From assembly GCA_011109175.1 (NCBI GenBank), contig RDEW01000021.1, positions 11,080-75,079 on the forward strand: 64,000 nucleotides of DNA, given 5' to 3'. Below are positions 33,790 through 62,027 of the stretch, piece after piece; position 1 is the stretch's first letter, and each line of letters starts with the position of its first letter. Made by a program: the position numbers and the translations under genes. The DNA is from Dicyema japonicum (Eukaryota; Dicyemida; Rhombozoa; Dicyemidae). Below the pieces are notes generated by a model. The model saw only the letters and a program-made list of their open reading frames with translations. It was not told the origin of the DNA and searched no databases.

Positions 33790-36700
33790 ATGGAGTCAAG
33801 TTTGAAAAACAACTGGAAAAAGTACAAATTCGCAGTGAGCACGGACACTAACAAAAACGCGGGGACAAAAGCCAAAGTTGGATAAATAAAAATTTTGAGA
33901 TTTCATTCCAAATTGTGAGTGATAACAAGGTCCTTCCACCATTCTGTTTTCCCTTTAAGCGGACCGAGCCAGATCAATCCTTTAACTTCCACGTGGGTTC
34001 TAAGAATTTTGTCATTTTGAGGACCGAGGACCTCAAAGGCATCAAATCCATCAAAATAATGGTCATTTGGTATTTTAAGGGTAGAATCATGGGAAAAGCA
34101 GAGATGACAGATGGAAATTAGACAGAATCGTTGTAACAGATCTTTCAACCAGCAAGTCCTGGACATTTCCAAAGAGCGAATGGATCATCCCTTATAAACT
34201 GGACTATTCCTTGGACAACTTCATATACCCGGCAAAGTCAACATTTTCGAGTATTTCTACTTTATGGATTGTTAGGTTACGACATTACCGTTTTCACGGG
34301 AAATCGCGGTGATTCCGCTAATAAGATCGTGTTTATTCAACTCTACGGGACAGCAGGGACCTCGGATGAAATAATATTAACAAAATCAGACTTACCATGC
34401 TTTAAAAGGGGGCTGTGGACACTTTTCATTCCGTGATCTACGACATTGGAGTGGTAAACAAAATAAAGTATTTACGTGCTCTTTCTTTAGGATTGGACTG
34501 ATTTCTACTATCAAAACGTCCACCTGGTATTTGAAGCACGTGGACGTAGTTAGTTTGCCTTACAAAAAGACCATGAGTTTCCCATGCCATCAACTGTTTG
34601 AGGCCAGCCAAGAAACAGTCTTCCTAACTCTTACTGGACAACGCAAGATGAGAAAACAAAGTAGAGATTTGTGTCACTAAGAATCGTCCTATGTCCTCAC
34701 AGTTTACTCCCAGCCTTTGGAATCCAGCAATTTCGACGGCTTTTTGGGTCTTTATCTTATCAACCCTACTGGGTCCTCTGACAGAATCATTTTATGCAAG
34801 AATCTCGAATGTTTCACTCACAAATGGTAAAATTACCGCTAAGCTCAGCATCAACAAATTTAGGGTGAAGAGCACGAGAATGGACGGAATCACATCTTTG
34901 TCGATGTTCCACGACTCGAAAGGAATCAGACTGTGGATTGATAAGGTATCCTCCATCCTGACCGTGAGATTGTCGTGGAAGATGAAATATTCGACAAATT
35001 TTACGATTTCGTATTTTTTGACTACATGGCTTGTGGCTTGACTTACAAGCTCGACGCAGTTCACTTTGATGAGCAAAGCCAAGGTCTCTTGATTAATAAA
35101 ATTAGACGATAAGGTCGTTTATCACATGTTTTTAAACATTGGGAGTTCACAGTCTTCCGAGAGGATGTCCGATCTCGACGTTGAGCTGATTGGGGGAACT
35201 GTAGACAGAACAGTCACGGAAAATGTGAGATTTGAGAAAAACTTAATTACTTTGCAAAAAAGCAATCATTTCAAGGCCAAATTCAGCAAAAACCTAAGCA
35301 TAGTCAGGACTCTTGTACTAAGATGCTCCACCCACGTGGAAAATCATACATTTTATTTGGAAAATGTGCTCAAAGTGCCTAATTTGTAGTTAAAGATCGT
35401 CAATTCCACGACTGGGGTGGTCCAAATATTTCCCTATGAGAAGACGTTTGAAGGGGACACGACTCTTACGGAAGACGTTAAACTGCGGGAGGTGACCAAT
35501 GCTGAAGGTCTACCTGTGATTTAAATTTTAGGTATAGTAGTTGACACGTGGCAGTTGATTTTCTTTTCAAAGCTCAATCACGCAGAAATATCATTCGAAT
35601 TACTCCTCTTTGGGTCACTGGGGGTCTCCAAAGTCTTCAATACTGGGAAGATCAGTCTTAAATCAGAATCTACGGAGACTATTAGGTTTGAGTCGCTCAA
35701 GGTTGGTCATTTGAAAAAACTCCGTGTTTGGCACGTGTCAAAAACTAGTCCCTTTTCAAAAGTAATGAATATGCCTTGACTTAGATTACGATTGGGAATT
35801 TGTGTTCTGGGTATTTTTACGTATTTTACACGGATTCCTGGTTCAAACGAGGCAATCAGAACGACCACTCCAATTTTATAGAGATGCCGGCTGAGGGTCC
35901 CATGGTATCTTCCGTGAAGGAATGTAAGGATTGGATTAACCATTTCAGTTGTGGAGTACATTATCAGATTGAAAGTAAAAAAGTCAACAAAATTGAAACA
36001 AATATTATTTTTGAGATTTTTGGAGAGAACGAGGACTCGACGGGAGAACGAGTATTTTCAAATCGGTCCCCAATGGATGAAGAGGTTGATAACGTATCTG
36101 ACTCTTAGGGATTTGAAAAATACAGTTTTTCTGCTCTTTCCATAGGACAGATCGAACGACTTAGACTGGGACATACAAAAAATGAGGAAAAGGCGAGCTG
36201 GCTTTTGGAATATGCAATCGTAGAGTGTCCCCAATTGGATCAGATAGAAGAGTTCATTTGCGAACGGTATTATGGCAGTTGATTGAAGATGGTTTTCACC
36301 CACCAAAGATGACGGCCTGTGTCTGCGAGTACTAAAGCCGGGGCTAAATCCAATTCCTAAAGGTAAGTCCGAGGAGTAGCATCCATAGAAACTGAATATA
36401 TCGTTTCTATAGCAACAAATAAATCCACCGAGCCTTCCAATTTAGGAAAAGCTTACATTACTTTCATCGGCACAGAGGGAAAAACTAGGAAGTTGTATTT
36501 TGAAAAGAAGAGTGGAAGTAAAGGACTAGTGAAACGCAAAGTAATCACTCCTTCACGTGTCAAAATGTCGGCCCAGTAATCGATTTGATTAACATCCAGT
36601 TAATATCTGTTTGCATTGGGTCTTCAGTTGACTCGGAACAGATCCCCTGGAGATTCGAATCCATCGAAGTCACCGTCCACAATAAGATTTACTACTTTTA

Positions 36701-37573
36701 CCCCAACAAGCTAATCAGCCGAAAATGTCCCGAAATTGAGGTGAACAAGTCGAACACCAAAAAGTGTCCCATTCATGGTTTGAGGAGTCCTCTTATTAGA
36801 GAAATCGAGTACAAGATAATTGTTTACACGGGAGACAAGCTGGGAGCGGGGACCGACTCGAACGTGTTCATCAACATTTACGGGAACAAAGATATTGTGT
36901 ACAACGTGAAACTAACGAATAACCAACATTATAACAAATTTGAACGGGGAAGGTAATTTTAAGGAATATGGAAGTACGATGTATTCACCAAGATGCTGAA
37001 GGATGTTGGAATGGTCCAGAAGATAGATTTAATGCACGACTCCTTTGGGATACTGAATGAGTGGTACGTGGACAAGGTGGAGATAATCAGTTCGACAAAA
37101 CGGTAGATTGGACCCTTTACTTAGGTATTTGTTTATATGTGAACAGTGGATAAAAAAGGCTAAAGGATCTCCCATGGCTTCCGTGACTCTTGCGACGGAT
37201 AGTTCTGCTGAAGATCAGCAGGGTAAAGGCTAGTTTCACGTTAGACTCAACGGATGGATTTTATACTATTACGATTTACACAGGGAGTCAGTTTGGGGCC
37301 GGGACTGACGCCTCAGTGTTTATTGTCATTCACGGAAATAAGGGGAGCACCGAATTGATCAATTTATCCTGCGCGATTTCAACTCGACCGACGAAATCCT
37401 TGTTTTCGAGAAACTCTGTGATTGTTTAACTTAAATCCAAGATTGATATTTTCAATGTGAACAATTTTGATGTGGGGGATATCACTAAGATAAAACTAAT
37501 GCACTCCGCCGCCGGGATAGGAGCCGACTGGTTTGTAAAAAAGTTGGAGATTCTTTACAAAAATGAAAAGTAA
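33790..37573 (+). CDS. tandem PLAT-domain protein (LOXHD1-like), 9 PLAT units
   Basis: Starts at ATG 33790 ('MESSLKNNWKKYKFAVSTD') and ends at TAA 37571. Seventeen introns of 21-26 nt restore the fold: 33877-33899, 34062-34084, 34251-34275, 34468-34490, 34661-34681, 34827-34848, 34946-34968, 35084-35105, 35366-35389, 35508-35531, 35762-35784, 36085-36108, 36267-36288, 36363-36388, 37103-37124, 37223-37244, 37418-37441. About 1,100 aa in nine beta-sandwich units. Signatures recur: 'YDITVFTG', 'IIVYTGDKLGAGTDSNVFI', 'ITIYTGSQFGAGTD', 'FICERWFSPTKDDG'. No signal peptide or membrane helix is visible, so cytosolic or submembrane, as for LOXHD1, whose PLAT units bind membranes/proteins. Two problem spots remain: a base is missing in the G-run 34408-34412, and the intron near 36953 leaves the frame off by one. 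Another intron lies near 36495-36523 with uncertain ends. Confidence 0.88.
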
Positions 37574-37966
37574 AAGTTGTAATAAAGCAGATATAATTTT
37601 ATTATTAACAAGTGGATTAAATTCGACAGCAAGAATAAAGAAGCATCGATAGAAGTTATTTATGAAAAATAATTAAATTAGTTATATACTAAAATATATT
37701 TAAAAATAAAAAAATTAATAAATTTAGTATTTACTAGGTTCTAGCTATCAAATGGTGAGGTGGCTTACCTCAATTGCGCGTATGTTTAAAACACACCTGG
37801 AGAATCGTACTTATCAAAAACCAAGATCTATACACACTTTGTAAATCGAAGCATTGGATACAATTATTACTAACACCCTATTGCTGATTAGTTGAACACA
37901 CATTACAGATGAATCATGCCGTTCCTGCATACGATATTATGGAATCATACTTCCTCTGCTTTAGGG

Positions 37967-39298
37967 CAGAGCTTTTCAATAATAATTCTCGCGGCACACT
38001 AATCGTAAAAAAATAATCCACGGCACACATTAAAAAATAAAAAATTAAATTTTTAAGATGTGTAAAACTAAGTACTAAAATTGGTAATTTAATTTCCAAA
38101 TTTTTATTAATAAAAAAATGAAATCTTAATTATTATTGTTTTTGCATATATCATCAATATCAGGTCGAATGGTTGACAAAGCCACCCGCATTTCAGCATC
38201 AATGTTTCTCAAACTTTCACGTTTGTTATATTTCATATAAAAACCTGTTTCGCATAAATAGATCGTAGAAAACTGTAAAATTATGGTCAGTGCTTGTTTT
38301 GATAAACTGGGATATATGTTTCGAATATATATCCAGAATTCTCCAATGTCTAACTCCGTCATCATTAATTTTAAGGATCGATCATTAAACAGTGCAATAA
38401 GTTTTCATTTTCTTTAACAGATAAGTGTTTTGATTCTGACACAAGAAAAGGATTTCGTATCTAAAAAATATTTAAAAAATAATAACCCAATCGAATTTTT
38501 CAATTTCTAAGTCTGGAAAATAAGCATCCATTTTGTTTTCCAAAATTATTAAATGTTCATTAATCAGTCCCTGTATCAATCATCATTATATCCTTATTAT
38601 AATTAAAATATAAAATAAACCAATATCCGTGGATTCATCTAGTTGTAATGAAAACCGAGTTTCTTTAATTTTTTGTTCATATTTAAGGCCAAACATAGTC
38701 CGAGCAATAATACGACAAGCAGGGCTTATTTAGTTTTCGCCAATAGTGTTTGGTTTTAATTGTTTTGCTATCAATTCTGGATCAGGTATGAATATTTCAA
38801 TGATTCTTTTGTGTTTACAATAGTTTCACTGAACATCATTTGACTAGATCTACGATTCATAGTAAAAACTAAAAATACTAGTATTGTTTTTTCAAATGGA
38901 TAAAATAATTCACAGATTTTTCGGAATAGTCCGGATGCTTGGAAGTAAAATACATCATTTGCCAAGAGTTAAATGTAAATTAGACATTGAGGTAGTTTAT
39001 TTTTATCTTTGCATATAAATCCAAATGACAATTAAGAATCTTTATAATAACGATGAACTGATTTATCCATAAGCACGTTGATGTGCACGTTATTAAAAAA
39101 TTAATTAATAATGGTTAACCAATGTTAATGTCATTTAATATATAATAAAAAAATGATTATTTTAATTTTAGTAATTATTTTAATTTGTTTATCTTTTTAA
39201 ATTAATTAGGTCAAAAAATGTATATAAATATATTCAAATTTGTATTTGGCAGGCGGCACACTAGAAATTGTCTCCGGCACACCGTTTGACAACCTCTG
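37967..39298 (-). mobile_element. hAT transposon nested in copy L
   Basis: The left end CAGAGCTTTTCAA.. (37967) and the inverted right end ('..tttgacaacctctg', ending 39298) resemble each other and both precede 'ggcacac' blocks. Flanks CTTTAGGG and GCTTAGGG form an imperfect 8-bp duplication (6 of 8). Length 1332 bp. The interior has a transposase remnant on the minus strand. Older than the hAT at 3585 judging by the imperfect duplication. Confidence 0.8.
38126..38365 (-). pseudogene. hAT transposase C-terminal domain remnant
   Basis: A 79-codon frame with 'FWIYIRNIYPSLSKQALTII' , 'LCETGFYMKYNKRESLRNID' and 'EMRVALSTIRPDI' matches the hATC dimerisation region of ZBED5/FAM200-type transposases ('YLCE.GFS', 'EMRV.LS.I.P.I'). 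Upstream minus-strand frames up to about 38960 are broken remnants. Confidence 0.82.
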
Positions 39299-40055: not shown

Positions 40056-40057
40056 TT

Positions 40058-41439: not shown

Positions 41440-42195
41440 CTAAGTGATCCCGGTTTTCCGGGTTCTGGCTCTCGTTCGGGGTCCTCGAAGATCCAACAGA
41501 ATTGGTAAAAACAGGGACGGTCTCATTCTCCATAGATTTCCCCCATTTTCTAGATAGTCAGATATAGAGAGTGAAAGCGGACAGCCGGTTTTCATTGCCC
41601 ACTGTAGAAGATGACTTCACTCTCCACCTTAGGTGTTCTTTAACATTCAATACGTTATCCAGTTTTCTTATTTATTATTTTGTGCGGCTTCTAATTTTTG
41701 AGACGACGATTCAGAAATCATCGAGCTCCAGGAGGGACATGCGTATTCGATTACTAGCAGTTTGTATTGTCTATAAATTTTCTGTGGTAAGAAGGTGTTG
41801 TGCCCGATTGGTGATCGGGACAAAATTTTCAATATGTTGGTCCTCATCCTGACCTTTGTAATAACGTCATTGACGTTTTGGCCGAATGTCAAAAGAGTAT
41901 CCAACTTTAATCCCAGTATTGTTGGAAAGTTATTCATAGGAATTTCATATCCAAACAATTTGATTTTGTGAGAGTATAATGATCTATATGTGGAGAAAAT
42001 TGTTATAAACGACTTTCCTGTAGAAACTTCCAGTCGATTTGATATGAGCCAATGTTCCAACATACAACTTTGAAGTTTTATCTCTGCCTTCTCATAGTTA
42101 GAATCTCTCGTCGAAAGAACAATGTCATCTGCGTATGAGAGTATCAATGTATCGGGATCGTCATTGGTGTACAGGTTGAAGAGCACTACCACGCT
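41440..42195 (-). mobile_element. jockey-like non-LTR 3' fragment (copy M)
   Basis: Minus frame 42192-41668 has RT motif C 'LSYADDIVLSTRD' (42115-42150), 'MNNFPTILGLKLDT' (41905-41945) and 'KIYRQYKLLVIEYACPSW' (41710-41765). Related 3' sequence continues to 41445, where the minus strand shows the 'gggatcac' terminus common to copies B, E and the fragment at 49210. Truncated at about 42195 against copy N. Confidence 0.72.
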
Positions 42196-42204
42196 CCTTA
42201 CTAA

Positions 42205-43190
42205 TTTGATCAGGGTTTCCTCCTCTTCTATGCTTCTTCACCTCTTTTACGAAGGGCCAGCTTGATTGCCATCCTCCTCGCCTTGTCCAAAAGATTGATT
42301 ATTCTTTCTCTTTTGGGGAAAAAATTCCTCCACATCCGTAGATGAGAGAGGGTAGAATAATTTTTTAAAAAATAAAGATAAACGTCTCCTTCTTCAAATC
42401 GAGTTTTCGTAGACACATATTCAACATAATCTCTCTGCATCCACTCAGTGTGTACCCCTGTTGAAAAAAACTTTATATAGTGTGAAATTCACTCGACTTT
42501 TGACTTTTCCATTGAGAGACTCAAGTCACGGGATTTACATCACCAGAGAATTTCTTCCAAAAATCCACGTAATCTTCTTTCAGACACCACCTAAATAAAC
42601 ACGTTAGTACTAGAATTCCCTGGTGCCGGGAAATCTCTTATAAATGTATTAAAGAGCAGAGGACTCAAGACTGAGGCTTGTGGCACTACCTTCTTCATTG
42701 TAATCTGTTCAGCAGTCAATCCTCCACATCCCACAAATGATCTTCTCCCGCCAGAAGATTCCTTAATCAGTCGAGTTTCGACTAGTTGACAAAACAGTGC
42801 GTCATGTCAGACACTACGAAAGCCAAAGCAGACGACACTAAGATGATATTTGAAGATCCTGGCCTTCTCAATCTCAGAGTTCAAGATGAAAAAACAATCT
42901 CCACAGATCTTCCTCCTTTCCAGGTTTTGGGATCATCTGAATAATGGACTCCATTTTTATTGACTTCTTTAAATAAGAAATCTATAGTCTTCTGAGTAAC
43001 TCGTATTCTTCTCTTTAGAAATTCTAGGTCCACATAATCCCGTCTTAACTTTGTCCGAAGGCGAGTTCGTTCTCTGCTTGATATGGTAGGGACAGCAGCT
43101 TTAGGATCTCCAGAGAAAACAGGTTTCGAAAAACAATGTATATTCTCCCCATAGCACTCACAATGTGCTAACATAGTCCACATCACCGGT
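42205..43190 (-). mobile_element. non-LTR fragment of the 8.5-kb family (copy N)
   Basis: Minus strand from 43186: 'SSRERTRLRTKLRRDYVDLE' middle domain, then 'SFVGCGGLTAEQITMKK' and 'VPQASVLSPLLFNTFIRDFP' (motif B with Gly changed to Ala, about 42610-42700), then a C-terminal frame 42440-42228. Resembles 9.4-10.5 kb. Adjacent to copy M in the same orientation, without shared reading frame. Confidence 0.6.
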
Positions 43191-44309: not shown

Positions 44310-44963
44310 ATGGCAAAAGACACAAAGGAACCTAGTTTTTTATTTGCAATTCAATGGGAACCTGGTTTACTGGAAGTATTGGACTGCTAATTTTAAAGGA
44401 CGGTGCAACATTGCCTCCAGGAAACCAATCTAATTCATGGACGATTCATGGTCTTTGGAAGGTAAGACGAGAACACCTTGAAGGAAACAACTTTGACATT
44501 AGTAAACTGGAGCCAATCATTGCCGAACTAAATAAATACTTTTCTACGGCCTACAGGGGTACATCGACTGAAGAATTCTTGTATTTTAAATTCACCCAAC
44601 AGATCACACGAATGGAAAAAACATGGGATTCATTTCAGGGACATTCTCGGAGGAGAGCTTGGATACTTCAAAAAGACATTGGATCTCCTCTATGAAATAG
44701 GAATGGACGAGTAAGGTGTTTTATGAGGTTTAGAATTTTAAAAAAACATAATATCATTCCTTCTTCTGATAAGTTATTCTCAGTATTAGTTGCTATAATT
44801 TTAGCATGCGGATATTCAAGCAGCCATAGTGGAGGAGAAGGGTATAGAAGTCGATATTCGAAACAAGGGCAATAATCTAAGTCAAATTTATATCCATTTG
44901 GATAAAGATTTCAATTTTATTAATTACTGGCGAGACTACCGTTATCTCCCGTTTGAGCATTAA
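44310..44963 (+). CDS. RNASET2: RNase T2-family endoribonuclease, cysteine-free, no visible signal peptide
   Basis: ATG 44310 to TAA 44961. Introns 44376-44398 (23 nt), 44581-44602 (22), 44711-44733 (23) and 44783-44804 (22) give exactly 187 aa. Both active-site blocks are present: CAS I 'SWTIHGLW' (about residues 35-42) and CAS II 'HEWKKHG', supplying the three catalytic His plus the Glu/Lys of acid ribonucleases that cleave RNA through 2',3'-cyclic phosphates. Length is near a mature T2 enzyme. Unusually, the joined protein contains no cysteine, whereas family members normally have conserved disulfides and are secretory/lysosomal. Usual Cys sites read 'HEWKKHGIHF' and '..VDIRNKGNNLSQIYIHLD'. 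The N-terminus 'MAKDTKEPSFLFAIQWEPG' is not a signal peptide and TGA directly precedes the ATG. An upstream leader exon cannot be excluded. Confidence 0.85.
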
Positions 44964-46834
44964 CTCATTTCTGTCTCGTTTGGTTATTAACATGGTTTTT
45001 CTCATTTTATTTGCATAATCGATTTATTCGATTTTAATTCTACGTGCCTAACATATTAGTGGTTTTTGACTATATTCACTGAAATAATGTGAAAGTACAC
45101 AAATGTTAAATCTTCATCAATCCAAAAAAACAGTGGACAGCACTGTTGTCTCTTGGTAAGGATGACTATTTATTCGACTTCCAAGATACCAAAAATGCTG
45201 TTAGGCTGTTCAATAAACTTCATGAGGCATGGTACTGCTGTTAGGCTGTTCAATTAACTTCATGAGAATTTTCAATTTGGTCAGTTTAGTTTATTTTCAA
45301 GTGGCAATTTCAATTTCCTCAAGTAGACTTGGCCTAGTGGTTAATCGGTCGGGGAGTTGAACCTAGCTGTCATCTCCCCAAAGTTAATATTGTCTCTTTC
45401 CTTTCGGATACATCATTGGATACGCAAATCTTCAGATGCGAGGAAGCATTGAGTACATCAATGTCACAATTAGGATCCCTCCTTCCCAAATTTGATGACT
45501 ATGGATAAGTCTGTATTGAGGCGGAACAATTATTAATTCCCAATCTTCTTAAGTGTACTTTTTGCTTGAAATCGATAATTAATGTAGGTTAAATATGCTA
45601 ATAATGTGGTTTTCAGTTTGACCAACCTAAAGGACAATGAACTTCACAGGAGTTATCTTTATTCGGAAACAGAAACAAAGAATTTAATGACAAATCATGC
45701 TTCAAGACAATGGGCATTGTTAACGGTGGTTATGAAAACACCCAGGAGCTGTGTGAACGATTCCCATTCGCTAGACACTACCAAACAAACAAAACACAGT
45801 GGACATTTTCTGTCTCTGAATGAGTCTTTGAAGAACACTGTCTTGTGAATCTTCAAATTTTAATATTAAAAAAACAACTTTTTCGTGGTTAAATGGTCTC
45901 TTCGACATAACTTTAATAAGTTCGTCCACCGATAAGAAGTTAGCAGTCATAACTGTCTCTGAATTAGTCTCTTCATATAAGAACACTGTCTTGTGAACTA
46001 ATTTAAGGTTTTTCAATCTTCAGAAAAGCTGTATTACGAACCCAACCCCATTATTTACCTGTTTACTTCAACCAACACCTTTTAGGAAGTCTTTAGTGGT
46101 TTGACCTATGCGAGCGAGCTCTCACATGAGTGTGAGTAACTTTGCACCCTAGAGGCTCCGAATAAATAGTACCGGCAGAATACTATCCTTTTTAAATTCC
46201 TCTTAGGTTTTGAACTTCTTGATGCAATTTTTGTTATAGGGTATTCACTAAACATTCCGTTTATTCTCCGTTTATCCCTAACGGTATTCACTAAACTTAT
46301 AAACTCTTTTCGGTCAACTGAGTCTTTCTTTCATTGCCTTCAACTCATTGCCACATGAATAACTCAAAATATATCAACAAGTGTTCTTTCATGGATCCCT
46401 GACATTCATACATAGTTCGAGGCAGGATTATACGCTTATTTGGTCATTAATTTGTGTTGCACTGGCATACAGGTAATCGGCCTCAGTAGGTGATTTAGGG
46501 TATCTATATAGGGTTACATTACATGGTCTCATTGTATAACCATTTGGGAATAACTCGTGAGTTGGGAGGTAGTCTCTTAGAATAGTACTCAAAGGTTCAT
46601 GGGAGAACTTGATATTTTTTGACTGGGAATATATTTCTTGGTTACTCTAATTATCCTTTAGTTACTCTGATAATATTGGGAATAGTCCCCTCACGAGTAA
46701 TGGCTATCTCCCACATGATGGCAATCTGATTCAAGTTCGACACAGTTTTTCATCCCCCTGTGCAATCGTTGATAGAAGAGTCCATGATTAAATTATACGT
46801 GCAATTTACCGTCTTAACCAATAACTAATATTCA
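44964..46834. other. unassigned stretch with possible exon
   Basis: Around 45670-45840 the plus strand has an open frame reading 'KSCFKTMGIVNGGYENTQEL' and 'CERFPFARHYQTNKTQWTF', then a stop. It looks protein-like but I could not join it to a start or a family. Another short open piece with 'KDDYLFDFQDTKNAVRLF' lies at 45125-45215, ending in the tandem repeat. No other features found. Confidence 0.3.
45196..45266 (+). repeat. 40-bp tandem duplication
   Basis: 'tgctgttaggctgttcaa' with 'aacttcatgag' occurs at 45196 and again 40 bp later at 45236, the second copy partial (about 31 bp). Sits in an otherwise unassigned region. Confidence 0.85.
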
Positions 46835-48895
46835 GGTGATCCCGGCATCTCTCAATAATCGGGCCATTTTTTCTCGATGCTCCGACCGTGATCCCACACA
46901 TTTTCTATACGGACGGAGGTCTTTTTCCCTTCCTCTTCTGAAATTGCCACCAGTTTCCTCTATGATAGACTCGAGTGCTCTGGGGGCAATTTTTTTATCT
47001 GTATATTTTTCCAGTAATTTTTTGCTCTTGACTGGATCTCTTGAATTTTTGTTAGGTTCGTTGCCGACAGGTTAGATCCCCACGCAGCAAATGCATAGCC
47101 TATTGTTGGCTCGACATACTGCTCGTAGAGGGTCCCGATACCTGGCAGATAAATTCCTCCACAGTTCCAAAGGAAAACTTTCACAAAATTGATCTTCTTT
47201 GCACAGGTTGATGTGATGGATTCCACATGGGCTGAAAAGCAGAGGAAAGTATCAAAAGTTACTCCCAGTATCTTCTGCGATTTCTTTTGTGGTATTGGCA
47301 CTCCATTTAACGTGACATCAATTGTTTGCGTTCCCATCTTTCTATTCTTAGTAAATAGAGTGACTGCTGACTTTCCGGAACATGAATTTAATCGATTTTT
47401 GCACAACCATCCAAATATGTTATTTAGTATTCCTTGTAGTCTTTACTTAGCATGTTCGACATTTACGTCTCTAGATGCGACAACTATGTCATCGGGATAA
47501 GAAAGTAGCATGACATTATTATTCATTGGTACGGGGAGATCACTCAAAAACAAATTAAAAAGGATTGGTGACAGAGGAGATCCTTGGGGTACACCATTGG
47601 GTAATGATCCCGATCTGGAACTCTTGTTTCCGAAGGACACTTTCCCTCGGCGTCCACTTACGAAATTTGCTAACCATAACTTTAATGTTTCATCAATTTT
47701 TGTCAAAAATATTTTTCTTATGAGGATCTTTCTTGGGACAGAGTCGAAAGCTTTTTGAATGGCGATCGTACATATGACCGATTTTTTTTGTTTTGGCTTG
47801 TTCTTGTGTCCTTCAGTTATAAACTTCATTAATGTTGTTAGGAAGGAGGTTGTTGATAATCCTTCCTTGAAGCCATGTTGGAATGTAGGTTGTGGGAGAG
47901 AAGGGCGAATAAGTTTTAGGACCAGTTTCTCCAGGATCCTCGACAAAACACATATAAGGGAAACTGGTCTGTAAGAGTCGGGATCGTTCTTCAGTCTTCC
48001 CGGTTTCAATATTGGACAAATTTTATGAATAGGCTTCGGTACAAAACGTGGCTCGCAATTCAGCTTCATTATCATTGAATGGTGGTCACTCCGGAGGTCA
48101 TAACGGACCGTCCAATTAATGATCGGGGAAAGACGAGGCGAGCAGATTGATAAGTCCGGAGATGTCACCATGTCCTTCGTGTTGTATGGTCCTAGTGTTC
48201 TTTTTCCGGTTGTTGATGATTATTAAGTTTTGCATTTGGGATAATAGCAGGTCTCTCCTGTTATCAGCGACCTGGTAGCGGAACCAAGAAGGGTGCTTTG
48301 CATTCAGGTTTCCACATAAAAGCAAGTTCTCCAGTTTGTCCAAGGTAGATAGGTCAAAGAAGAAATATTTCTTGCAGGAAGCAGGAGGAGGAACATAAAC
48401 ATTCCCAATTTCAATTTTTCCAATGGAAGTTATAACAGAGATTCCAATTATCTCCGTGTTCGAGTCTTCTATTAAGCTCTTGTAAGGAGAAAGGTTCTCG
48501 AGGTATTTTATTCCTTTTCTCGCAAGAGTCAGTAGACCCCCTCCTTGGCCAGATGGGCGGTCGGATCTTACTGTGTTGTATCCGTTAAAGAGAGGAGTAG
48601 GAATGTTATTTGAAAGCTTCGTTTCCTGAAGAAGGCAGATGTCTCTGTTCCTCTCCAAGAATAAGAAAAGTTCGGCAATCTTTCCTCTGCTTTGGATTGT
48701 TAACTTCTTTGGGCCTGGAGTTTGTTCCACATCTGCTGAGGTCAACAGTCTCAATCGATAGAATGTTCCAACAGTGAGAGAATGCCGTCCAGTAAGAAGT
48801 CCTCTAGTTGGTAGAGAGCAAATGGTTCTTTTTAGATATAGTTTAGGACTATATCCGACGCCACCAGAAACGGTGAACCACATGACGCACTCTAA
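46835..48895 (-). mobile_element. jockey-like non-LTR element (copy B), almost full length, catalytically dead
   Basis: Minus strand: endonuclease frame 48883-48116 ('CLLQETKLSNNIPTPLF', 'VRSDRPSGQGGGLLTLA'), RT frame 48171-47443 and C-terminal frame 47406-46960, overlapping through shifts. Substitutions hit catalytic sites: endonuclease 'GDLNA' is 'CGNLNAKHPSW', RT motif A 'DIQKAFD' is 'TIAIQKAFDSV', motif C 'YADD' is 'SYPDDIVVAS'. Motif B 'NGVPQGSPLSPILFNLF' is intact. The 3' end is at 'gggatcacctgaa' (about 46835). The 5' end matches copy A. Confidence 0.88.
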
Positions 48896-50148: not shown

Positions 50149-51715
50149 TTAGGTCGACGAAAGGTTCACTTCTGATAGCTCATGATGCAAGTAAGCCAAG
50201 GCATTTGAAGATTCCATCACGTGGATTCCGTTCATAGCTCTGATTTTAATTACTTGCAAATCATTAATGAGATTTATAAACATTGTCCTCGCCTGGAATC
50301 TGCTGTAGTTTGACTGCAGATACAAAGATAGGAGATATGTGTAGTGTTCCTGTGTTTTTACTACGAGACTCTAAAGGTTAGTCTCCCCCTAACCACGTTG
50401 TTCAAGTCCTCTCTTTCTGGCGAAAATATGGCGATCAAAATAATCAGCTGTAGAGTCTTGAGGTCCCCAGCTGAATGCTCGGTCAACTCCTTAGTAGCAT
50501 TACACTGCTGGATTAGCTGCTCTATTCCATAGATCGACTCCTCGTGGTAGAAAATGGGGGGAATTGTTGATTCATTTTCATTAACCTCGTGGACATCCGA
50601 CACAATGCTCATTCTGATAGTCAAAAGTACGATTATTGACGACTAAATAAACGGAAACCCTTACTTTTAGTAAAGTTAGTCTGTCCTCCTGACACAAATT
50701 CCGGTACTCTTCGAAATGTCCTATGAAGTGTGCAAATTGGCGAGTTTTTGTGGATACATTGTCCGTATTAGTGAAGACCCTACCATTGCTTTTTGACAAA
50801 AAACCTGAAAAAGATATAATTGATGTTTTCTATCATCTGGTTGGCTTCCTCTGAGAGGCACATTTTGGGGGTTGTGTCGAATATACCTCCATTATTCGAA
50901 ATGGCTGGGAGTTGAGGAGAAAATTTAATGATTAAGTGACTTGCAAAGTCCTCTGATGACTTGAGATAGTCCCCTTCGAATTCTTCAGTAAACACGAAAT
51001 CATAGAATCCACTGTCTTTGTGTATTTTCGCCACGGGATAGCAATGAGAATAAACGGGTAATCCAGTTGGGGGATGAAAGTAGGCAGAAGACATGTCCAA
51101 AGAGAAGCTTCCCTTATGCATTTGGGGAGGAACTCCTGTTGGAAATGAATGATGTCTTTGAATGGCGGATATCATTGAATGATTGTTAGGAATGTGGTAA
51201 ATTTGGTCGTTGACCTTTCCGTAGTTATAAATGTAGGAAGGTGGAGTTCTTTCGAATCTACTAACTCGAGGACTGAAAATATTAGATCCGCCCTGAGAGC
51301 TCTCGTCGTTCTTTTCCCGTGAGGTTTTTCGTTTGTGCTCGATTTTTACGCGTCTTTTCTGCAGCTGATCTTCAGCTACGAACATTAGAGAATAAATATT
51401 ACTGAGAATCCACTGTTTCTTCATCCCCACGTTTATGCATTTGTTCAGTCGACAAGCTGGACAGAACTTCCGAGTAAATGGAGTGAGAGCACATTCCCCC
51501 GTGAAGGCACAACGCATATTCTCAAATAAGACATCAATTACCTTCTTTCTGAGAGCGTTTCTTCTGAAAAATGCCTTGCAAGACTCGCACGTGACTGCAT
51601 TGAAGTTATATCCAAGCGCCTTATCCCCACAAATTGCACAGATGTACTGAAAGTGATGTCCCTTTGGTTTACTTCTGCGCTTGTGGTGTTCCGTTTTTTC
51701 GTTAAGTGAAATCCC
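50149..51715 (-). CDS. nuclear receptor (DAF-12/HR96-like, NR1J-type P-box)
   Basis: Minus strand. The DNA-binding domain starts in the exon ending at 51715: 'CAICGDKALGYNFNAVTCES' with P-box 'CESCKAFFRR', second zinc finger 'CAFTGECALTPFTRKFCPAC' and 'CRLNKCINVGMKKQWIL'. The 'ESCKAFFRR' P-box is typical of the HR96/DAF-12 group. Introns 51521-51541 (21 nt), 51376-51402 (27), 50780-50804 (25), 50643-50664 (22) and 50371-50393 (23) keep one frame of 482 codons to TAA 50149. A ~180-residue hinge precedes a ligand-binding domain: 'RQFAHFIGHFEEYRNLCQED' (helix 3-4), 'LIILIAIFSPEREDLNN' (helix 8-9), and 'LSLYLQSNYSRFQARTMFIN' (helix 10). Acts as a DNA-binding, probably ligand-regulated transcription factor. 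The first exon(s) and start codon upstream of 51715 are not resolved. The intron there may use the acceptor at 51716-51717. Confidence 0.9.
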
Positions 51716-51745: not shown

Positions 51746-54700
51746 TAATGCGATTGTTTGCGGTAACTCAACCAAAAAACTAACATCGACAAAACAGCAG
51801 GAGTACCTAACTTAAAGACTGCACATAAAATATGCCGGAGAATTGTGGTTCAATCAGTAAATTGTCAGATCCTTATCTAACCACGTTTAATCTAACATGA
51901 ATACGAATGATCGATCATGTAAAACAGCCATCGGTTGTGTTCGTGATAAAAGCATGCAAATATATTGGGAGTGAATGTAGTAAAGGTTACCTCAAACTCC
52001 GACGAATCAATCGGATCCTCTCTTATCATTTTGCTGGAATTCATTTCATTGGTTTTTCCAGACGACCTACATTAATAAGCGATAAGAAAATATCAACAAA
52101 ATATTCTAAAGCAGCAAAGAACATGAAATGGTCGATATATAATTAGCGAGTTGCCTAATAACGAGGGAAATGATCGTAAAAAATAAAATAATAAAACAAG
52201 AATGAGCATGCAAACAGAAAATATGACAAATGTTAATTTTCTGATAAATGGGACCATTAAAAGTCTACAGATAAAGACACGTGCATTAAACCAGTAAACA
52301 GCCTACAACTCCCAAATAGCAGCGCGAGTACAATTCTATATAATTCCCGAGGTCTCGCACAAAATCCATATTCGCTTTTTGTGCCAATAAAAAAGCAATG
52401 AATAATAAGTATTGTGTGACAAATATTGACAAATCCATTAAATATATTGACTCTGCCAAAATTCGCAGAAAATACAAAACTTACTTAAATATTGTCCCCC
52501 CGAAACTTTGCGCTTTTATATTCCTATCGACCGCCACCTGTCACGCTAGCATTCACTTTGATTTTTTAAATTACAAATCATGACACTTCGCTTAATGAGG
52601 TAAAAAACGAGTAAGCAAATCTCCCCAAATTACTCAGCCTCGCCAAAGTAACCCCGAGTTGGTAATCAAAACAAAACTGATAGGACTTGGCATGTGAAGG
52701 GTGTATCTTATCGCCAAATGAACTCTTATTCTTACGCAAAAAAGTGGAAGTACAAAATGTAAGCAGTAATTGTCGGGAGTTTAATTTCAAAGTAAAAATA
52801 GGCAAACTGAGTTTTCAGTAAATATTTATATTCGCGGTTTTACAGCTCCCTTGCAAATTGATTGAGTCTGTGACCCGACATAATTTATACTTTTGATCGA
52901 CATTCATATTTTTTGTGATAAAGCGTATCATATTCACTTTAATAGTACCAACGTGCACTTTTGTGGATTATTTCTTTACAAATGACCTCACATTCACAAT
53001 TGTTATGCCACAGATTCGGTTTTGAAAATTTACTCGACCTTCGGTATTTTGCCATCTCAAATAATTTTATTCACTGAATATTCAGTCATATTTATTTACT
53101 GTCATGTCTCCTAGTAACTCTCGAATAGCTATTCTTCTAAACAATTCGTTTATAAAATTAAAGTCAACTCAAAATATTTACTCAAATTTGTTAAATCCGT
53201 CAGAATTTGTTGATGGAAAACAAATCATTCTGCGGTAATAAGACTGGCGATTTGATGTCTGGAAAGTGCATGATATTATATTTGTGGTTGCTTCTTTACG
53301 CAGTTACAAATGACCTTTTCAAGTTTCACAAAGAAAATTAGATTTTGTTGGTTCTTAAGGGAGTACCATTATGAGTAATTTATGGTGGTAGGGGGAACTA
53401 ACACGACGATTCTTGCCTTTCCCACACGACTGAAGGGGTGGAAGTTCTTCATTTTCGCTGGTTCTGGGTATACTTTTGTGGTTCTAGAAGTCTTCCTTTT
53501 CCGTGACCGTGGAGTCGGAGATAATTATTTGAATGTTTAAATAAAAAATAATAAAAATGAGTTTTAAAAAATCATTATATTCCTCGTTAATGACGCTGAA
53601 ATAGAAATCAAGGCTTCCTTAGGGCCGTGAATCTGTAAGGATTCATAAATAACAGCTATTCGGGCGACATCAGCATATTTCATGAAAGATGTTTTTGTGG
53701 AAGACTATTATGTTGTCAAAGTTGATTAGTTTTAAATGTTGTTTATTTAAATAGGATTTAGTTAAAATGGGGGGTACTAACTGATTTCGTTTTCAGTCGA
53801 TCCCCTGAGATGTTTGGAACCTCGGCCATAGTACAACGATTTGCAGAAACATGAAGGATTAAGTACAGAACGCTATAATGACACTCCAAGAACGTGAGGG
53901 GGTTAACTCTTGCAAGAGGGTGACTCAATCCGCTCTGAGTGTCTGCATATTGAAAAGTCGAATAACATTGCCATCACTGATCTCAATATGAAAGGATTAT
54001 GTGTATTATTTGACTTGGAATTCTTAAAATTATAGTAAAGTCACGATATCCGCCAACGAAGATAACGTTGGAGTAGTTTTCTGTCTTTCAAAATTCCAAA
54101 TGCATCCCTTAAACCACAAATGGAACTCATTATAAGCGGACTCGAAGTCACTTGAAACTGTCATTTACATTATCTGTCCTTCGATTGGTGGCCTACACGT
54201 GATACTGGAATGAGATAATAATTACTAGAGACATTTGCATTGTTGACTTTAGCATCCTCTTGTCAATAAGGTTTGCTTTTTTCGATTTTGTTCCTTTAAA
54301 TTGGAAAACTCGATTAAACTGGATAATTGGCGATTTTAACGATATTTTGAATTGAGTGAGTGATCAAAGAATACAGAAAATCAGTTATTAGAGTACTTTT
54401 CTATTATGGATTTTTCAAAATGTCTCCAACTATGCTGCACGAGTCGATTCCCTTTAACTACTTGCCCAAAGGTTTTTTCACTGCCTATGTTCCTCCTTTT
54501 TTCTCGTTCTATTAGAGTGGCATCGTGTCATTCAGCTGTCTCAGCATATTCTCAGTGCCAATGTGACATGACCATTATCTCTACTTTATTCCATTGAAGG
54601 GGTCACTACAGCTGCAAGGACTGGACGTTTTCTTCCCTTTCACTGGTTGAGTGTGATATTGGAGGGTCTCTGTTTCTCTGACTGTGAGAACTGGGTAAAT

Positions 54701-55608: not shown

Positions 55609-56043
55609 ATGGAATCCACTGAAACTACCAAAAAGTGAACAAATTTAATAATTCGAGATCTTATAGTCCCAAAATATACAGGCAGTCCTCATTCGAGGAA
55701 TACAGCGAGATAACTAAGAATATTGAGAGGCAAAATAGCGGGGAAAGTGTTGCCTTTATAACCAAATTGATTGAGGAATCCGAGGAGGTTAGAAATATTA
55801 ATAGTTAAGGACGTTGAGAGGAGCAAGAATGTCATAAAGAAGGATTTGATGACAGAATACTCACGTAAGGGACATTGGAGGCATTCCGTTTATTCCTGCA
55901 ATATTTGCAACACAATTTTCAGCTCACTGGCGATCTGCATTCTCCACATAACAGAGCATTGCAAGGACAATACATTTCCTGATGAAGTCTCGAATTTGCC
56001 GGATATTATCATTAAAATTAATGATAATTTTAATTTAGAATGA
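55609..56043 (+). CDS. small zinc-finger protein (129 aa)
   Basis: ATG 55609 to TGA 56041. Introns 55635-55657 (23 nt, gtgaac..ttcgag) and 55788-55809 (22 nt, gttaga..gttaag) give a frame of exactly 130 codons. The N-terminal half is acidic/charged ('SSFEEYSEITKNIERQ', 'LIEESEED'). The C-terminal half has one C2H2/U1-like finger 'CNICNTIFSSLAICILHITE' + 'HC' (C-x2-C-x12-H-x3-H). Lies 62 bp upstream of the ZNF830 homologue on the same strand. The close spacing suggests compact organisation or a shared promoter region. No family name is justified. Confidence 0.65.
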
Positions 56044-56105: not shown

Positions 56106-56945
56106 ATGACTTCAAAGGTCACTCAAGAAGAGCTAAGGCGATTAATGAAAAAGTCCAAACCGCAGCACATAATTTCCTCTCCTTATATTAAGTAGATCCT
56201 TTAGCTACATTTCACAGATACAATTCATTCGGAAAAATGACATGTTTGGTTTGTAATTGTCAAATAAAAAGCGACATTATCTGGGGAGTGCATTCTAAAA
56301 CAGAAGAACACTTAAAAGTAATCCTTCACTTGCATTATTCTAGAAAGTCTCCTTGTTTTTGTCCTCTTCGGGAAATAACAATAATAATACTACTTCTATA
56401 AACTCCCAAAATGAGCATGAAAACGCTCAGAAACGGTCTCGTGAAAAAACTGAGGATTTTCCTGACCCAAAAATGCAGAAATTTAACGAAGAAATGTAAA
56501 TTATTGATTCGTGATTATCTAGGGTGGTTGAAGGCGGGAGTTCCGAGCCGATCATCCTCCAGGAAGTACCCAAGGACTTTTTCGACAGTGGTTTCCAAGT
56601 GGAAGTCAAGACGAAGAAGAAATCGAATATTGATGAGGAAATACGGAAATTTGACGAAGAGATGAGACGGGCCCCGATGACTACTGAGGAGACCTTCGAA
56701 CCCCCAACGGTTGGACGTACCCTCGAAGAGATTGACTACGAAATGTAGAATGGGAGCCGTATTTTAGGGATGAATGGCAAAAGTGCGAGGAATTGAGGAT
56801 TAGACAGGAGAAGGCTTTTGCTGAGCACATGGAGGAGGACGGGGAGGATGTTGGGAGATGTAATAGTCATTGGCGTGACTTCAACTCAACTGATAGTGAT
56901 GATGTATTGGATTGCTTTCTTAAGTCAAACCCGTTTTTTAAATAA
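56106..56945 (+). CDS. ZNF830: ZNF830 (CCDC16) homologue
   Basis: ATG 56106 to TAA 56943. Introns 56192-56217 (26 nt), 56318-56343 (26), 56496-56522 (27) and 56745-56767 (23) leave exactly 245 aa. The N-terminus 'SKVTQEELRRLMKKSK' matches the family's 'NQEELRRLMKEKQ'. It is followed by 'SPYIKYNSFGKMTCLVCN' and a U1-like zinc finger (C-x2-C ... H-x6-H, 'HSKTEEHLK'). The middle has 'VPKDFFDSG' (family 'LPEDFFDS'), then an acidic coiled-coil C-terminus 'RTLEEIDYEMDEWQKCEEL' equivalent to 'EIDEQMECWRRVE'. In vertebrates ZNF830 is a nuclear protein of spliceosome-associated complexes with roles in DNA repair and early development. Shorter than the human protein (about 370 aa). Confidence 0.9.
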
Positions 56946-57752: not shown

Positions 57753-58802
57753 ATGTCGTCTCTTGTGGAGAGGTTTTTTTCGTTTGTAAGTTTTATTAGA
57801 AAACCTGCTTCTCGTCGTGGAAAAAGAATTCTCGAAAAGAAAGAACCTCAAATATTCGAGAACCCAAAACGTTCCCTTATAATAAAAGGAAAAACTTGCA
57901 AACAGAATACATGGCAAGTCCTGCGAGACATCGTAAATATTGTACTAAAACATAGTCTCGACTCAAAAAACCCCTTGTGGTACCCTACAATCACAAAAAT
58001 GACCTCCTTCCCTTTGAGGACATCAACAAGCTAGTTTTCTTGCGTTTTACTCCAAGGAATACTTTTCTAAGAAAGAAGACTGTTCTCTCTTCGCATTTGC
58101 CTCGGATTCTAAGAAACGTCCGAACAATGTGGTTTTCGGTACCATGGTTTCTTATCCAAGGTTCTTTCCACGATCACCATCTCCTGGATATGTTTGAATT
58201 CGGGATATCAGCTTTCCGTGGACTGGATGAGATCAGGGGACAGACTATAGATGTCGGGTGTAAGCCTATTCTGGTTTTTTCGGGCCAAGAATTCGATTCT
58301 GACGTGATTTTCCGTCGTTTGAGGATATTTTTCATGGGTTAATGGTGTTCTTACTCATAGATTTTTTTCGTGGAGAACTTGCCTCGGAGGTATCCCTCGA
58401 TAACTTTCAGCATGTCATCTTCTTTAGTCAGCACGGTGATTCCGTGTCCCTGAGAAATTACAAGTTAAGATTTTTTATGATTTTCAGGATCTCCTTGAAA
58501 GTATCTGGGTCTGAGGTCCCCGACGTTGTTTTGAGTGAACTGGGGCCGGCCGTGGATTTCTGTAAGCGCCGAGTACACCTGGCCGAGGATGAGCTGTTTA
58601 ATAGTACAGTGAAAAAACCGAAGGAAGCGAAGGTTTAGTGGGTGGTGATTTGTAGGTAAAGAAGGTGAAAAATCTATCGAAGGATGTGTTTGGGACAAAG
58701 CTCGGAAGGATTCATATGGAGAGACAGGACTACTCCAAGTTGAATTACAAGAAGCCCAAAGCTCTCAAAAAACGATTTGGGAAAGATAAGATTGATTTGT
58801 AG
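57753..58802 (+). CDS. RPF2: RPF2, ribosome production factor 2 (Brix domain)
   Basis: ATG 57753 to TAG 58800. Seven introns: 57773-57799 (27 nt), 57933-57955 (23), 58034-58056 (23), 58139-58160 (22), 58338-58360 (23), 58464-58487 (24) and 58633-58655 (23). Removal gives exactly 294 aa (human about 306). Family blocks in order: 'RRGKRILEKKEPQIFENPKR', 'LRDISRLKKPLVVPYNHKND' + 'LLPFED', 'SKKEDCSLFAFASDSKKRPN' + 'NVVFG', 'HHLLDMFEFGI', 'MDFFRGELASEVSLDN', 'ELGPAVDFCKRR', 'KKVKNLSKDVFGTKLGRIHM'. RPF2 works with RRS1 to load the 5S RNP into pre-60S particles in the nucleolus. The Lys-rich C-terminus is kept. The first intron is in phase, so its splicing is inferred from homology only. Confidence 0.95.
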
Positions 58803-59946
58803 TTTTAAATATTAATTTTGTTTTTCTTTTAATTGATTTTATATTTGTTTATTTGCCACGTGTTTGATTGGTCATAATTTGAGGTGGTTACCTCTATTAC
58901 AAAGAATTTCTACTTCGCTTTTCTTGTCCTTCCCGTGAATGTGGATGATGTGGTGGAGTCAGGAGACATCAGAAATTTTAAGTTCTGAACAAAAAAAGGA
59001 AGTGTCCGTGTATGTATTTGACTTATCGTCCAGCCCACAATTGAAAGAGCTTGGGATATTGATCATATGTTAAAAGATGGTAGACAATACGATCACATTT
59101 GTAACTCAAATCGAATGGAGGCATTGGAGCTGAACAGTCAACCGCACTACCAATCATCATTTGATGCCTCGAGGTTTAAGTCATAACAGGCTGGAAACTA
59201 AACACTCTAATCTCTTCGTGCTTAACGATGGATGGAGTATTATTTTAGGTTTCAGACTAAATCCTTCGAATTACCAGATTCTGCTTAGTTGAATTTCTTA
59301 TTGGAATTCGAGTGTCACTGACACCAATTAACTATAACAGGGGTAATTACCATAATTTAAGATATTTGCTTACCCCAGTCTCAACTGAGGTATCAACTGT
59401 ACTATTCAGTAGAAATTATTCTTGCGAAATGATGCACGTGCCTATTAGGCCCTTCACCAGCTAACATGCCCGTGTCTAATAACTCCTAGTGATGGAATCC
59501 AGTTAAGACAGTGTGTCAACCTAACTGAGTTACAAATAATTATGGTAGTTTTATTCACTTAAGAAATGTAAGTTATTTTCTAACGATCAATATTTTTTAT
59601 TTTTTCCTAAATGTTAGCTAAATCGTTACATGTTCACTAGTAAAGGTGTTGAGCAGCAGATTACATCTTATTGGCTTTATTGACTGAATGTGCGACAAAT
59701 AATTTAGTTTTTTCATGTTATCCCCCACGTGTGACAACTATTATGTACATACTTGGGTACATTAACTGTCCTCGTTGACCGTGTGCTTTGACTTTTGACT
59801 GATATGGTCGACTTTGATTTATTCAATTTCTTGTATTCCTGGCTGAGATCAGTTTGGGACTTTTCCAAGATCCCACAGTTGAATGAGTGACTGACGGGAT
59901 AAGTCGTATGGGCGAGTATTTCGTCCTCATACTAGAAAAGTCATCA
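58803..59946. other. intergenic between convergent RPF2 and FBXW10-like genes
   Basis: 3' flanks of two converging genes. No coding frame, repeat shared elsewhere, or RNA gene is supported. Confidence 0.45.
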
Positions 59947-62027
59947 CTAATATCGAACCCTCACATTCGACCCAGACACGTGGGTCAGATTACGCAAAAT
60001 ATTTGAGTTGGCTGACTGAATATAATGCATTCTGTGTGACCGTATTTGTGAATATGGTCGGTGATATTCGGGTTCTGGGGAATCTTTAACCTCCTCGTGG
60101 GTTACTCTGGGGATCTTTTCTTCCTGGTCGTATCTCAGTTCTACTGATTCGAAGGATAGAAGAGCTACGACATGTCTCGTGCACACAATTATGCTAAAGT
60201 AGCAATTTACCATTAAACTTATCCTCGGAGGTAAAAAACTGTCTTATCGGCTCACATTTGGCGGTGGCTCTGATCACTTTAATACATTCTCCCTTGAAGA
60301 GGTCCCAAATCCGTATTTTTCCGTCGTTGCAGGCTGTGATGACTCGCATATAAACGAGGGCAACATCCATCACAGCACTAAAGTGAGTCAATCAAGTACG
60401 CAGGGTGGGAGAGCTTGCTGATCTCGTTCAAATTATAGTCCGACCTACCCCAACATTTAACAGTAGAGTCCTTTGATGACGTAATCAGGAACCACTTTGT
60501 AGCGAAAATGGATGTGATCTCCCTGTCGTGAGCCTTATATACCTGAAATGGTCACTGACTGCTGTACCCGCTTAAGTTTAAAGTCTTTGAGGGAATAAAC
60601 CTTCATGACCCCAGTTTTGTCCCCAGAAGCCAAAAAGTCCATAAAAAATGAAATCTTCATGACTGGTTGGGACTGAGAAAATGTGTGGATGCACTTCCCC
60701 GTTCTTATATCCCAAACTAATTTAGAATTCCTTGAATACCTTTGCACGTGCAGTCGGAAGATGCCGAAAAGATCAGTTCCTTGTTGCCTTTAATGTCATT
60801 TACAGTTTTAATGTGGCCTATGAATATTTTGGCACACTTTTTTTGGTTGATATTCCATTTCCTACGAGTAACCCCCATGAAGCGCCTTATGGTCGTGTCG
60901 TAGCTGGCAGAATAGATTGAGTTTGAACCGACCACGAGAGCTCGAATAGAACCCACGTGGCCTTTCAAATTGATTATAGTCTTTTCGTACGTTTCGTTGA
61001 ACCTGACTGCTTGGATGGAATTCTGTTTACCAGTGATGGCCACTAATCTTTCGTTTTTGCTGACCCCCGTGACATATCGTCCACGGCTGTTCTAAAGTAA
61101 GCCATTTTGTAACCATTTGAAGAGGGGGATGAAGTTATAAGGCTGAAAATACACATTTCTGACCTCCATTTCAACTTCCACTCTGCTGCTCCGTCTGGAG
61201 GAATCAGCTGGAACCTGCACTTTCAGGAAACTCGCATAATTTTTGTTGTAGACATCTCCTGGGAGGAACTGATAATTAAAGGGGTTAAAACGTGGCAAAT
61301 GATGTATTTCTGGTGATCCTTCATGGCTCGGAAGTTATCGAAATATTCCGTAATCTTCTGATTCCAAAGTCGGGATACCATGGCCGCGGTAGTGAGACTT
61401 TGTTTGTCCAACAGTCTGAATAAATACTGGATCATATTATTTGGGAGTTTCCCCACAATGTCGAACTTCCCCCTTTATTTGTGCAACTTATGGCAAACCT
61501 GGTTTCCTGGTCGCTAGGATCTACGTATAAAATTATTGGGTACCTCCCATTGGCAGTCTTCGTTTTCTGAGGAGAGAAGTCAGCTGGGTGAGGACGCTCA
61601 AAATGTGGTAGGATTTGACTTTTTGGAGGATTTTAATGACAAATTTGATTTGAAGGAAACTCTGAAGAGACTCAAACCACAAGAAAAGGTCATCAATGAA
61701 TTTTTTGATTAAATTGAAGGGGACTGCTCTATCCGCACTAGTAGGGGGAGTGTCACAGAGTTGGTGGAAGTTGTGCTGGCTTATAGAGTAGACATAGTCA
61801 CGTGACAATATAAGATCTAGAATTTGATAGAGTTTCTCCAATGAGTTGTAGTTTCTGATTTTATTGATGAGTCCATAGAGGAGCTGTTTTTTGGTCTTTA
61901 CCCCAATTTGGTCGAACCAAGTCATGCTTTGTAGTCGTTCGATCAAACAAACATCAGTAAAATTTTGCTCAAAGATCGGCAAACTCTGAGACCGATCATA
62001 TTCTAAGCGATATCGCTTCATTTTCAA
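59947..62027 (-). CDS. FBXW10: F-box/WD40 protein, FBXW10-like
   Basis: Minus strand, ATG at 62027, stop at 59947. Eight introns: 61521-61543 (23 nt), 61473-61498 (26), 61269-61291 (23), 61087-61113 (27), 60717-60739 (23), 60534-60555 (22), 60378-60399 (22) and 60193-60217 (25). They leave exactly 629 aa. The N-terminal helical region has 'WFDQIGVKTKKQLLYGLINK' and 'LSRDYVYSIS' (family 'GKDFTYSRS'). The F-box is 'VGKLPNNMIQYLFRLLDKQS' + 'LTTAAMVSRLWNQ'. The WD40 repeats include 'LKGHVGSIRALVV', 'SASYDTTIRR', 'VWDIRTGKC', 'SSKDSTVKCWG', and the FBXW10-specific 'ACNDGKIRIWDLFKGECIKV' + 'IRA'. Such proteins are substrate receptors of SCF (CUL1-SKP1) ubiquitin ligases: the F-box binds SKP1, the propeller the target. 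Confidence 0.9.

Follow-up and report, generated by a model that had tools for sequence, protein, structure and literature searches.

Seven genes in a stretch of 64,000 nucleotides (nt; the window, on contig C88 of a 64.7-Mb genome assembly of 191 contigs) are interrupted by GT..AG introns of 20-27 nt, and comparison of the DNA with protein families confirms that these introns are real. They are very probably U2-type introns of a dicyemid that have mostly been reduced to 21-27 nt, with a mode of 23, and each of them would be defined as one unit by spacing. The nearly fixed place of a putative branch site suggests that this spacing helps the splicing machinery to find the introns; the geometry of the signals is observed in 69 introns, and we infer from it that the machinery measures the distance. 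An earlier note on the window had listed 54 uniform ultra-short introns, had taken them to be spliceosomal and of dicyemid origin, and had warned that ordinary gene finders would break the genes that carry them. These points held up, and its statement that the introns leave little room for a separate branch site did not.

A splice-aware gene finder was trained on nine chaperonin loci, retrained, and run on the window and on 200 kb of other stretches; a restricted run, allowing introns of 20-28 nt only, covered positions 33000-64000 of the window on both strands. The introns of the window were placed independently of the earlier note, which gave length counts without the coordinates of its 54, and amount to 44 in nine models of seven genes (Table 1), with a mode of 23 nt (20 nt, 1 intron; 22, 11; 23, 18; 24, 5; 25, 3; 26, 3; 27, 3) and lengths much like those of the earlier list. 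Their GT..AG ends were imposed by the finder in 43 cases and by placement by eye in one (44376-44398), and coordinates other than those of RPF2 depend on the ab initio finder and are less secure. Outside the 44 are four models with one predicted intron apiece (61490-61712, 63579-63904, 45695-45950 and 41668-42440). Once spliced, all nine models have a length that is a multiple of three and a single terminal stop, and 8 of the 44 introns have a length divisible by three. Left unspliced, the start frame contains 9 to 31 stops in eight of the nine models and 5 in that of the small zinc finger, as expected of genes that ordinary gene finders would break. In these counts the nuclear receptor was read from 51517; read from 51715, it is also divisible by three after splicing (1497 nt), as had been claimed, and a start at 51786 fails in this respect.

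The Brix domain of RPF2 scores 131.7 bits in the spliced product and 31.0 and 35.5 bits in the two largest unspliced frames, and the alignment score of this gene against the RPF2 sequence of a solved structure is 613 when introns are allowed and 238 when they are not. Spliced RNase T2 matches Pfam PF00445 with 94.3 bits, its two largest unspliced frames giving 24.6 and 17.8, and the PLAT domain reaches 68.5 bits in the second model of the PLAT protein and 84.4 in the third, the largest unspliced frame of the latter scoring 22.1. It should be noted that part of the Pfam searches of the window used first-pass models not identical to the final models.

Introns were also placed by an independent protein-to-genome alignment of ten genes, namely RPF2 of the window and nine chaperonin genes elsewhere in the genome (TCP1 alpha, beta, gamma, delta, epsilon, zeta, eta and theta, and HSP60), in which only GT..AG introns were allowed, under a flat penalty for lengths of 15-120 nt. 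Nine solved-structure sequences served as references (one with 19 residues filled in and one with 16 unknown residues), together with a TCP1-alpha sequence taken from a protein search; the chaperonins are named after their best solved-structure match or, for alpha, after the protein search. With no length prior, these alignments returned 73 introns, 69 of them within 20-28 nt and 32 of exactly 23 nt (17 nt, 1; 19, 1; 20, 1; 21, 4; 22, 9; 23, 32; 24, 14; 25, 7; 26, 1; 27, 1; 29, 1; 34, 1). The four outliers of 17, 19, 29 and 34 nt were dropped from the signal counts, which use the remaining 69 introns (median 23 nt, mean 23.2 ± 1.2), distributed as 3 to 9 introns in each chaperonin gene and six in RPF2. 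When all 256 pairs of end dinucleotides were tried on six of the aligned genes, GT..AG obtained the best score, 7965, followed by a runner-up at 7500; the other 255 pairs averaged 6933 (standard deviation 338) and the score with no introns was 4078, a result in agreement with the spliceosomal type proposed earlier. The homology alignments and the test of the end pairs both show that the introns are not due to chance. Two introns of 88 and 89 nt from the first ab initio pass were rejected, the homology alignment giving 19 nt, and 20 and 24 nt, respectively; a 54-nt intron of the same pass falls outside the homology alignment.

In 51 of the 69 homology-placed introns there is a T-N-A-Y motif with the A between -6 and -9 relative to the 3' end, compared to 17.6 ± 3.6 expected and a maximum of 31 in 2000 composition-keeping shuffles, a frequency that does not support the supposed lack of room for a branch site. 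The motif is a likely branch site, as a sequence signature rather than a mapped lariat. Its positions peak at -7 (19 introns) and -8 (21), introns with several fits being assigned to -7 first, then to -8, -6 and -9, and in 40 of the 51 the A occupies position 16 or 17 of the intron. By a weaker measure, some A at -6 to -9 is present in 69 of 69. In the ab initio set, the selection of which depended partly on the 3' end, 121 of 208 introns contain T-N-A-Y (52.8 ± 5.7 expected); because this part was chosen with an acceptor matrix, the claim on branch position rests on the 69. Of 213 introns pooled from both sources, 122 had a single T-N-A-Y at -5 to -11. The A of this motif is base 16 or 17 in 28/34 cases when the intron is 22 nt long, 34/48 at 23 nt, 9/13 at 24 nt and 7/11 at 25 nt, and its positions spread out in introns longer than 25 nt. 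Usually the putative branch A lies 16-17 nt from the start of the intron and at -6 to -9 counted back from its end. An AG inside -9 to -3 is scarce (5 of 69 introns, 15.1 ± 3.3 expected from 500 shuffles). In-frame stops are present in 16 of the 19 homology-placed introns whose length is a multiple of three and in 18 of the 50 others (Fisher p = 4e-4), an excess consistent with surveillance of unspliced RNA; the ab initio count for such introns (33 of 36) was left unused because the finder hides the stop-free ones.

Regarding the 5' splice site, the information at positions +3 to +6 is 1.0 bit in the 69 homology introns and 0.76 in the 208 ab initio introns. No enrichment of G at +5 was detected (15 of 69, or 21.7%, versus 23.6% at the 776 GT sites within exons of the chaperonin models, p = 0.54), nor was complementarity to U1 found at +4 to +6, where +4A and +6T each gave p = 0.16 in the 69 introns. 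Position +3 is A in 28 and T in 29 of them, and the last base of the exon (-1) is G in 46, compared to 22.9% at the 776 exonic sites. The weak dicyemid 5' site is already published, and the absence of +5G enrichment is an addition of this work. Since accepted dicyemid introns have weak 5' sites, the mismatch with U1 was treated as degeneracy of the site and not as a reason to exclude the introns from the class.

According to the mechanism that we propose, the whole intron would be defined as a single unit: U1 would read chiefly the exon-side G plus GT, U2, aided by SF1 and U2AF, would take the A at a fixed spacing, the first AG past the branch A would be used, and the distance would make up for most of the information that the 5' site no longer carries in its sequence. 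Somewhat more doubtful than not is the stricter form, in which the major spliceosome might read a geometry of GU, 13-14 bases, the branch A, 3-6 bases and AG, with almost no U1 or U6 complementarity at +4 to +6. According to PMC6692369, efficient assembly in human splicing in vitro requires that the 5' site and the branch site be about 50 nt apart, a B complex without altered structure needs an estimated minimum of about 52 nt, and Smu1 and RED ease short spacings. The spacing found here, about 15-16 nt, is far under 52 nt and would imply, if true, an activation complex built differently from the human one.

The genome holds candidate components of this machinery. Cut-offs are exceeded by 22 of 25 matches to the U2 small nuclear RNA (snRNA) and 9 of 10 to the U6 snRNA, with the GUAGUA segment of U2 and the ACAGAGA segment of U6 each intact in two aligned copies, and the U1 5' segment ACUUACCUG is present in three of four aligned copies; the pairing segments of all three RNAs look canonical. 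The remaining U1 copy, on C126 (L045), reads ACUUACUUG instead of ACUUACCUG. An SF1 helix-hairpin (80.5 bits) and a RED N-terminal domain (64.3 bits) were found over their cut-offs. A U2AF2-like gene on C114 was pieced together; no piece exceeds the cut-off of 310.3, and the profile is one that RRM proteins match widely (of 14 controls from bacteria and archaea, 2 matched). Its pieces lie 22 and 23 nt apart exactly where the profile positions run on contiguously. Introns of the U12 type are marked by an RTATCCTT 5' site and a CTTAAC branch. A single U12 snRNA match (contig C68:163471-163599, L051; 85.4 bits, cut-off 53) has a well-conserved 5' segment, and the minor spliceosome may persist in this genome. 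Tiny introns of this type were considered and rejected, a strict genome pattern giving 16 matches and its control 31; GTATCC starts 2 of 228 ab initio introns, in a finder restricted to GT in which AT-AC introns could not show.

The source genome is, on the evidence of its Pax6-like gene (L052), that of a dicyemid, as the earlier note had supposed. Among the best 120 of 6806 matches, the first is Dicyema acuticephalum Pax6 (65% identity over 81%, 339 bits) and the next has 296 bits; an identity of 65% indicates that the source species is not D. acuticephalum itself. According to PMC2222250, D. acuticephalum Pax6 has one phase 0 intron in the paired domain and introns of phases 1 and 0 in the homeodomain, and the introns of this species were defined from genomic versus cDNA clones. 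Here, the paired domain has a 24-nt intron of phase 0 and the homeodomain a 23-nt intron of phase 1 and a 25-nt intron of phase 0, in agreement with the published ones in three of three cases when compared by domain and phase, not by exact position. Against a simple match stands an extra 20-nt phase 2 segment in the paired domain, beside a badly aligned stretch, and two further aligned segments of 20 and 31 nt near the 3' end are of doubtful status. Paired-box matches exceed the cut-off at four loci (contigs C13, C101, C122 and C1), of which the one on C13 was read.

Short segments that break a frame could also be assembly indels or pseudogene frameshifts that mimic introns. The HSP60 gene (L040) indeed contains, near 1354-1406, a frame change without plausible intron, possibly an assembly error, where the 34-nt segment proposed by the aligner reads as coding. 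As an explanation of the whole set this is nonetheless highly improbable, in view of the length class, the win of GT..AG over 255 other end pairs, the positional A, the introns in all nine chaperonin genes, and the agreement of the Pax6 introns in domain and phase with those defined in D. acuticephalum from genomic DNA and cDNA. Hardly any credence can be given to removal of the segments from DNA, in the manner of the internal eliminated sequences of ciliates, instead of from RNA: no point in its support was found, the GT..AG ends, the exon -1 G and the branch-site-like A are spliceosomal marks, the genome holds U1, U2 and U6 snRNAs with U2AF2-, SF1- and RED-like genes, and the published dicyemid introns came from genomic DNA compared with cDNA.

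Another possibility leaves the introns as they are and has their 3' end taken without U2AF2, by a route of the SPF45/RBM17 type, which a human study reportedly describes for some short introns. The branch A would be just 5-8 nt from the exon, AG included, leaving no usual pyrimidine tract, and, according to PMC12862383, RBM17 takes the place of U2AF2 where tracts are short and is retained in ciliates. However, a U2AF2-like gene and SF1 are present in the genome, and we consider this route unlikely; the SAP30BP family PF07818 has no genome match, but the controls likewise gave none, so its absence says little.

Several observations weigh against U2-type introns recognised by spacing, the explanation that we favour. 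Both splicing and the branch A are deduced from DNA and protein. The 11 U1 snRNA matches all stay under the cut-off of 69.5 (best 69.0), and T-N-A-Y occurs in just 25 of the 44 window introns, which were mostly placed ab initio. Furthermore, 40.4 kb of coding sequence from 28 host models contain 60 exonic look-alikes (GT..HAG, 21-26 nt, T-N-A-Y), a rule obeyed by 112 of 196 predicted introns and therefore insufficient alone; these 60 compare with 84.3 ± 6.0 expected, control lengths of 12-17 (z -2.8) and 40-45 (z -2.0) being also depleted and look-alikes being removed by the finder as well. The stop contrast may be inflated because a stop-free intron divisible by three can be aligned as coding sequence. 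Finally, among the 228 introns predicted ab initio in the window, in the chaperonin loci and in 200 kb of other sequence, 20 measure 39-94 nt; these 20 were excluded from the signal counts, and rarer longer introns may exist alongside the tiny ones.

Dicyemid introns were described as short and uniform in 2007 (PMC2222250), in accordance with the earlier note, which had called them established, and again in 2008 (PMC2483917) and 2019 (PMC6543705). Those of D. acuticephalum are, like the present ones, short and uniform with a very weak 5' site (PMC2222250, PMC2483917), of 0.5 bits at +3 to +6 in 41 introns (PMC2483917), whereas their length is given as a mean of 26.2 ± 1.9 (16 introns) or a median of 25 and mean of 24.93 ± 2.51 (41 introns), compared to a median of 23 here; actin2 and ATP synthase genes of this species are described as intron-free (PMC2222250). 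Introns are likewise short in a Dicyema sp. genome, but with a median of 27 bp and about two thirds under 30 bp (PMC6543705), and in the D. japonicum genome, but with a mean of 38.2 bp (PMC6736024); the latter is reported at 67.5 Mb and 36.7% GC, versus 64.7 Mb here and 37.6% GC over the 264 kb that were counted. PMC2483917 states that dicyemids have no branch-point signature, whereas a positional one was found here; a literature search aimed at Dicyema intron branch points gave no other paper, and the study of D. japonicum introns by Ogino et al. (2010) may hold splice-signal data. Outside dicyemids, Stentor coeruleus also has an almost fixed branch A (10th base of 15-nt introns), no strong consensus and snRNAs, but is a ciliate with introns of 15-16 nt (PMC9505925). 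Introns of Paramecium and of the Bigelowiella nucleomorph are similarly very short, many per gene and weak in signals, but their 5' sites are mostly GT(A) (PMC2483917), whereas A and T are about equally frequent at +3 here. The additions to what is in print are medians lower by 2-4 nt, the positional branch signature, and the absence of +5G enrichment together with canonical-looking snRNA segments.

Table 1. Genes and introns of the window (positions in the window; aa, amino acids)
Feature	Position	Strand	Remarks
RPF2 gene (Brix domain)	57753..58802	+	303 aa once six introns removed
RPF2 intron 1	57933..57955	+	23 nt, homology-placed, no length prior
RPF2 intron 2	58034..58056	+	23 nt, homology-placed
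RPF2 intron 3	58139..58160	+	22 nt, homology-placed
RPF2 intron 4	58338..58360	+	23 nt, homology-placed
RPF2 intron 5	58464..58487	+	24 nt, homology-placed; missed by first ab initio pass
RPF2 intron 6	58633..58655	+	23 nt, homology-placed
RNase T2 gene	44310..44963	+	187 aa once four introns removed; model verified against DNA
RNase T2 intron 1	44376..44398	+	23 nt, placed by eye, frame confirmed open
RNase T2 intron 2	44581..44602	+	22 nt, ab initio; HEWKKHG restored on removal
RNase T2 intron 3	44711..44733	+	23 nt, ab initio
RNase T2 intron 4	44783..44804	+	22 nt, ab initio
PLAT-domain protein	33790..37573	+	ab initio, three models: 33790-34436, 34691-36956, 36993-37573
Introns of model 33790-34436	33877-33899, 34062-34084, 34251-34275	+	
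Introns of model 34691-36956	34946-34968, 35084-35105, 35366-35389, 35508-35531, 35762-35784, 36085-36108, 36267-36288, 36363-36388, 36557-36576	+	
Introns of model 36993-37573	37103-37124, 37223-37244, 37418-37441	+	
Nuclear receptor gene	50149..51715	-	5' end provisional; frame open from 51715, model with first ATG starting at 51517
Nuclear receptor introns	50371-50393, 50643-50664, 50780-50804	-	
Small zinc-finger-like gene	55609..56043	+	ab initio; name from the earlier note
Small zinc-finger-like gene introns	55635-55657, 55788-55809	+	
ZNF830-like gene	56237..56945	+	5' end provisional
ZNF830-like gene introns	56318-56343, 56496-56522, 56745-56767	+	
WD40 gene	59580..62021	-	FBXW10-like in the earlier note; WD40 66.5 bits (first-pass model), spliced frame open
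WD40 gene introns	61521-61543, 61473-61498, 61269-61291, 61087-61113, 60717-60739, 60534-60555, 60378-60399, 60194-60218	-	
WD40 gene introns	59932-59958, 59738-59760, 59607-59629	-	less certain

The three models of the PLAT protein are perhaps one gene. In the nuclear receptor, zf-C4 scores 70.2 bits and Hormone_recep 24.2, in a longer model from 51786 with a doubtful 65-nt intron. A single large unspliced frame of the WD40 gene scores 33.2 WD40 bits, and no F-box family is among the best 25 of the 30 Pfam families matched by its first-pass model. The ZNF830-like gene, whose spliced frame is open, matches ZNF380_CC with 21.6 bits, under the cut-off of 28. Reverse-transcriptase-like open reading frames of transposable elements, judged by eye, lie at 16043-18563 (+), 20056-21840 (-) and 46832-48883 (-) of the window; they have few predicted introns, for example of 23, 66 and 44 nt in the longest, and the host genes differ from them.

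The host genome is that of a tiny cephalopod parasite, in whose animal group introns of about 23 bases are a known oddity, and gene finders with the usual minimum intron length would miscall genes of this kind. It is an open question how the spliceosome of an animal excises an intron of 23 nt, in which the 5' and branch sites lie nearer to each other than the presumed limit of the human complex. The genome offers a set of introns whose branch position can be defined, together with snRNA segments of canonical appearance and SF1, U2AF2-like and RED genes; with such a branch position and recognisable components, the question of their removal becomes open to testing.

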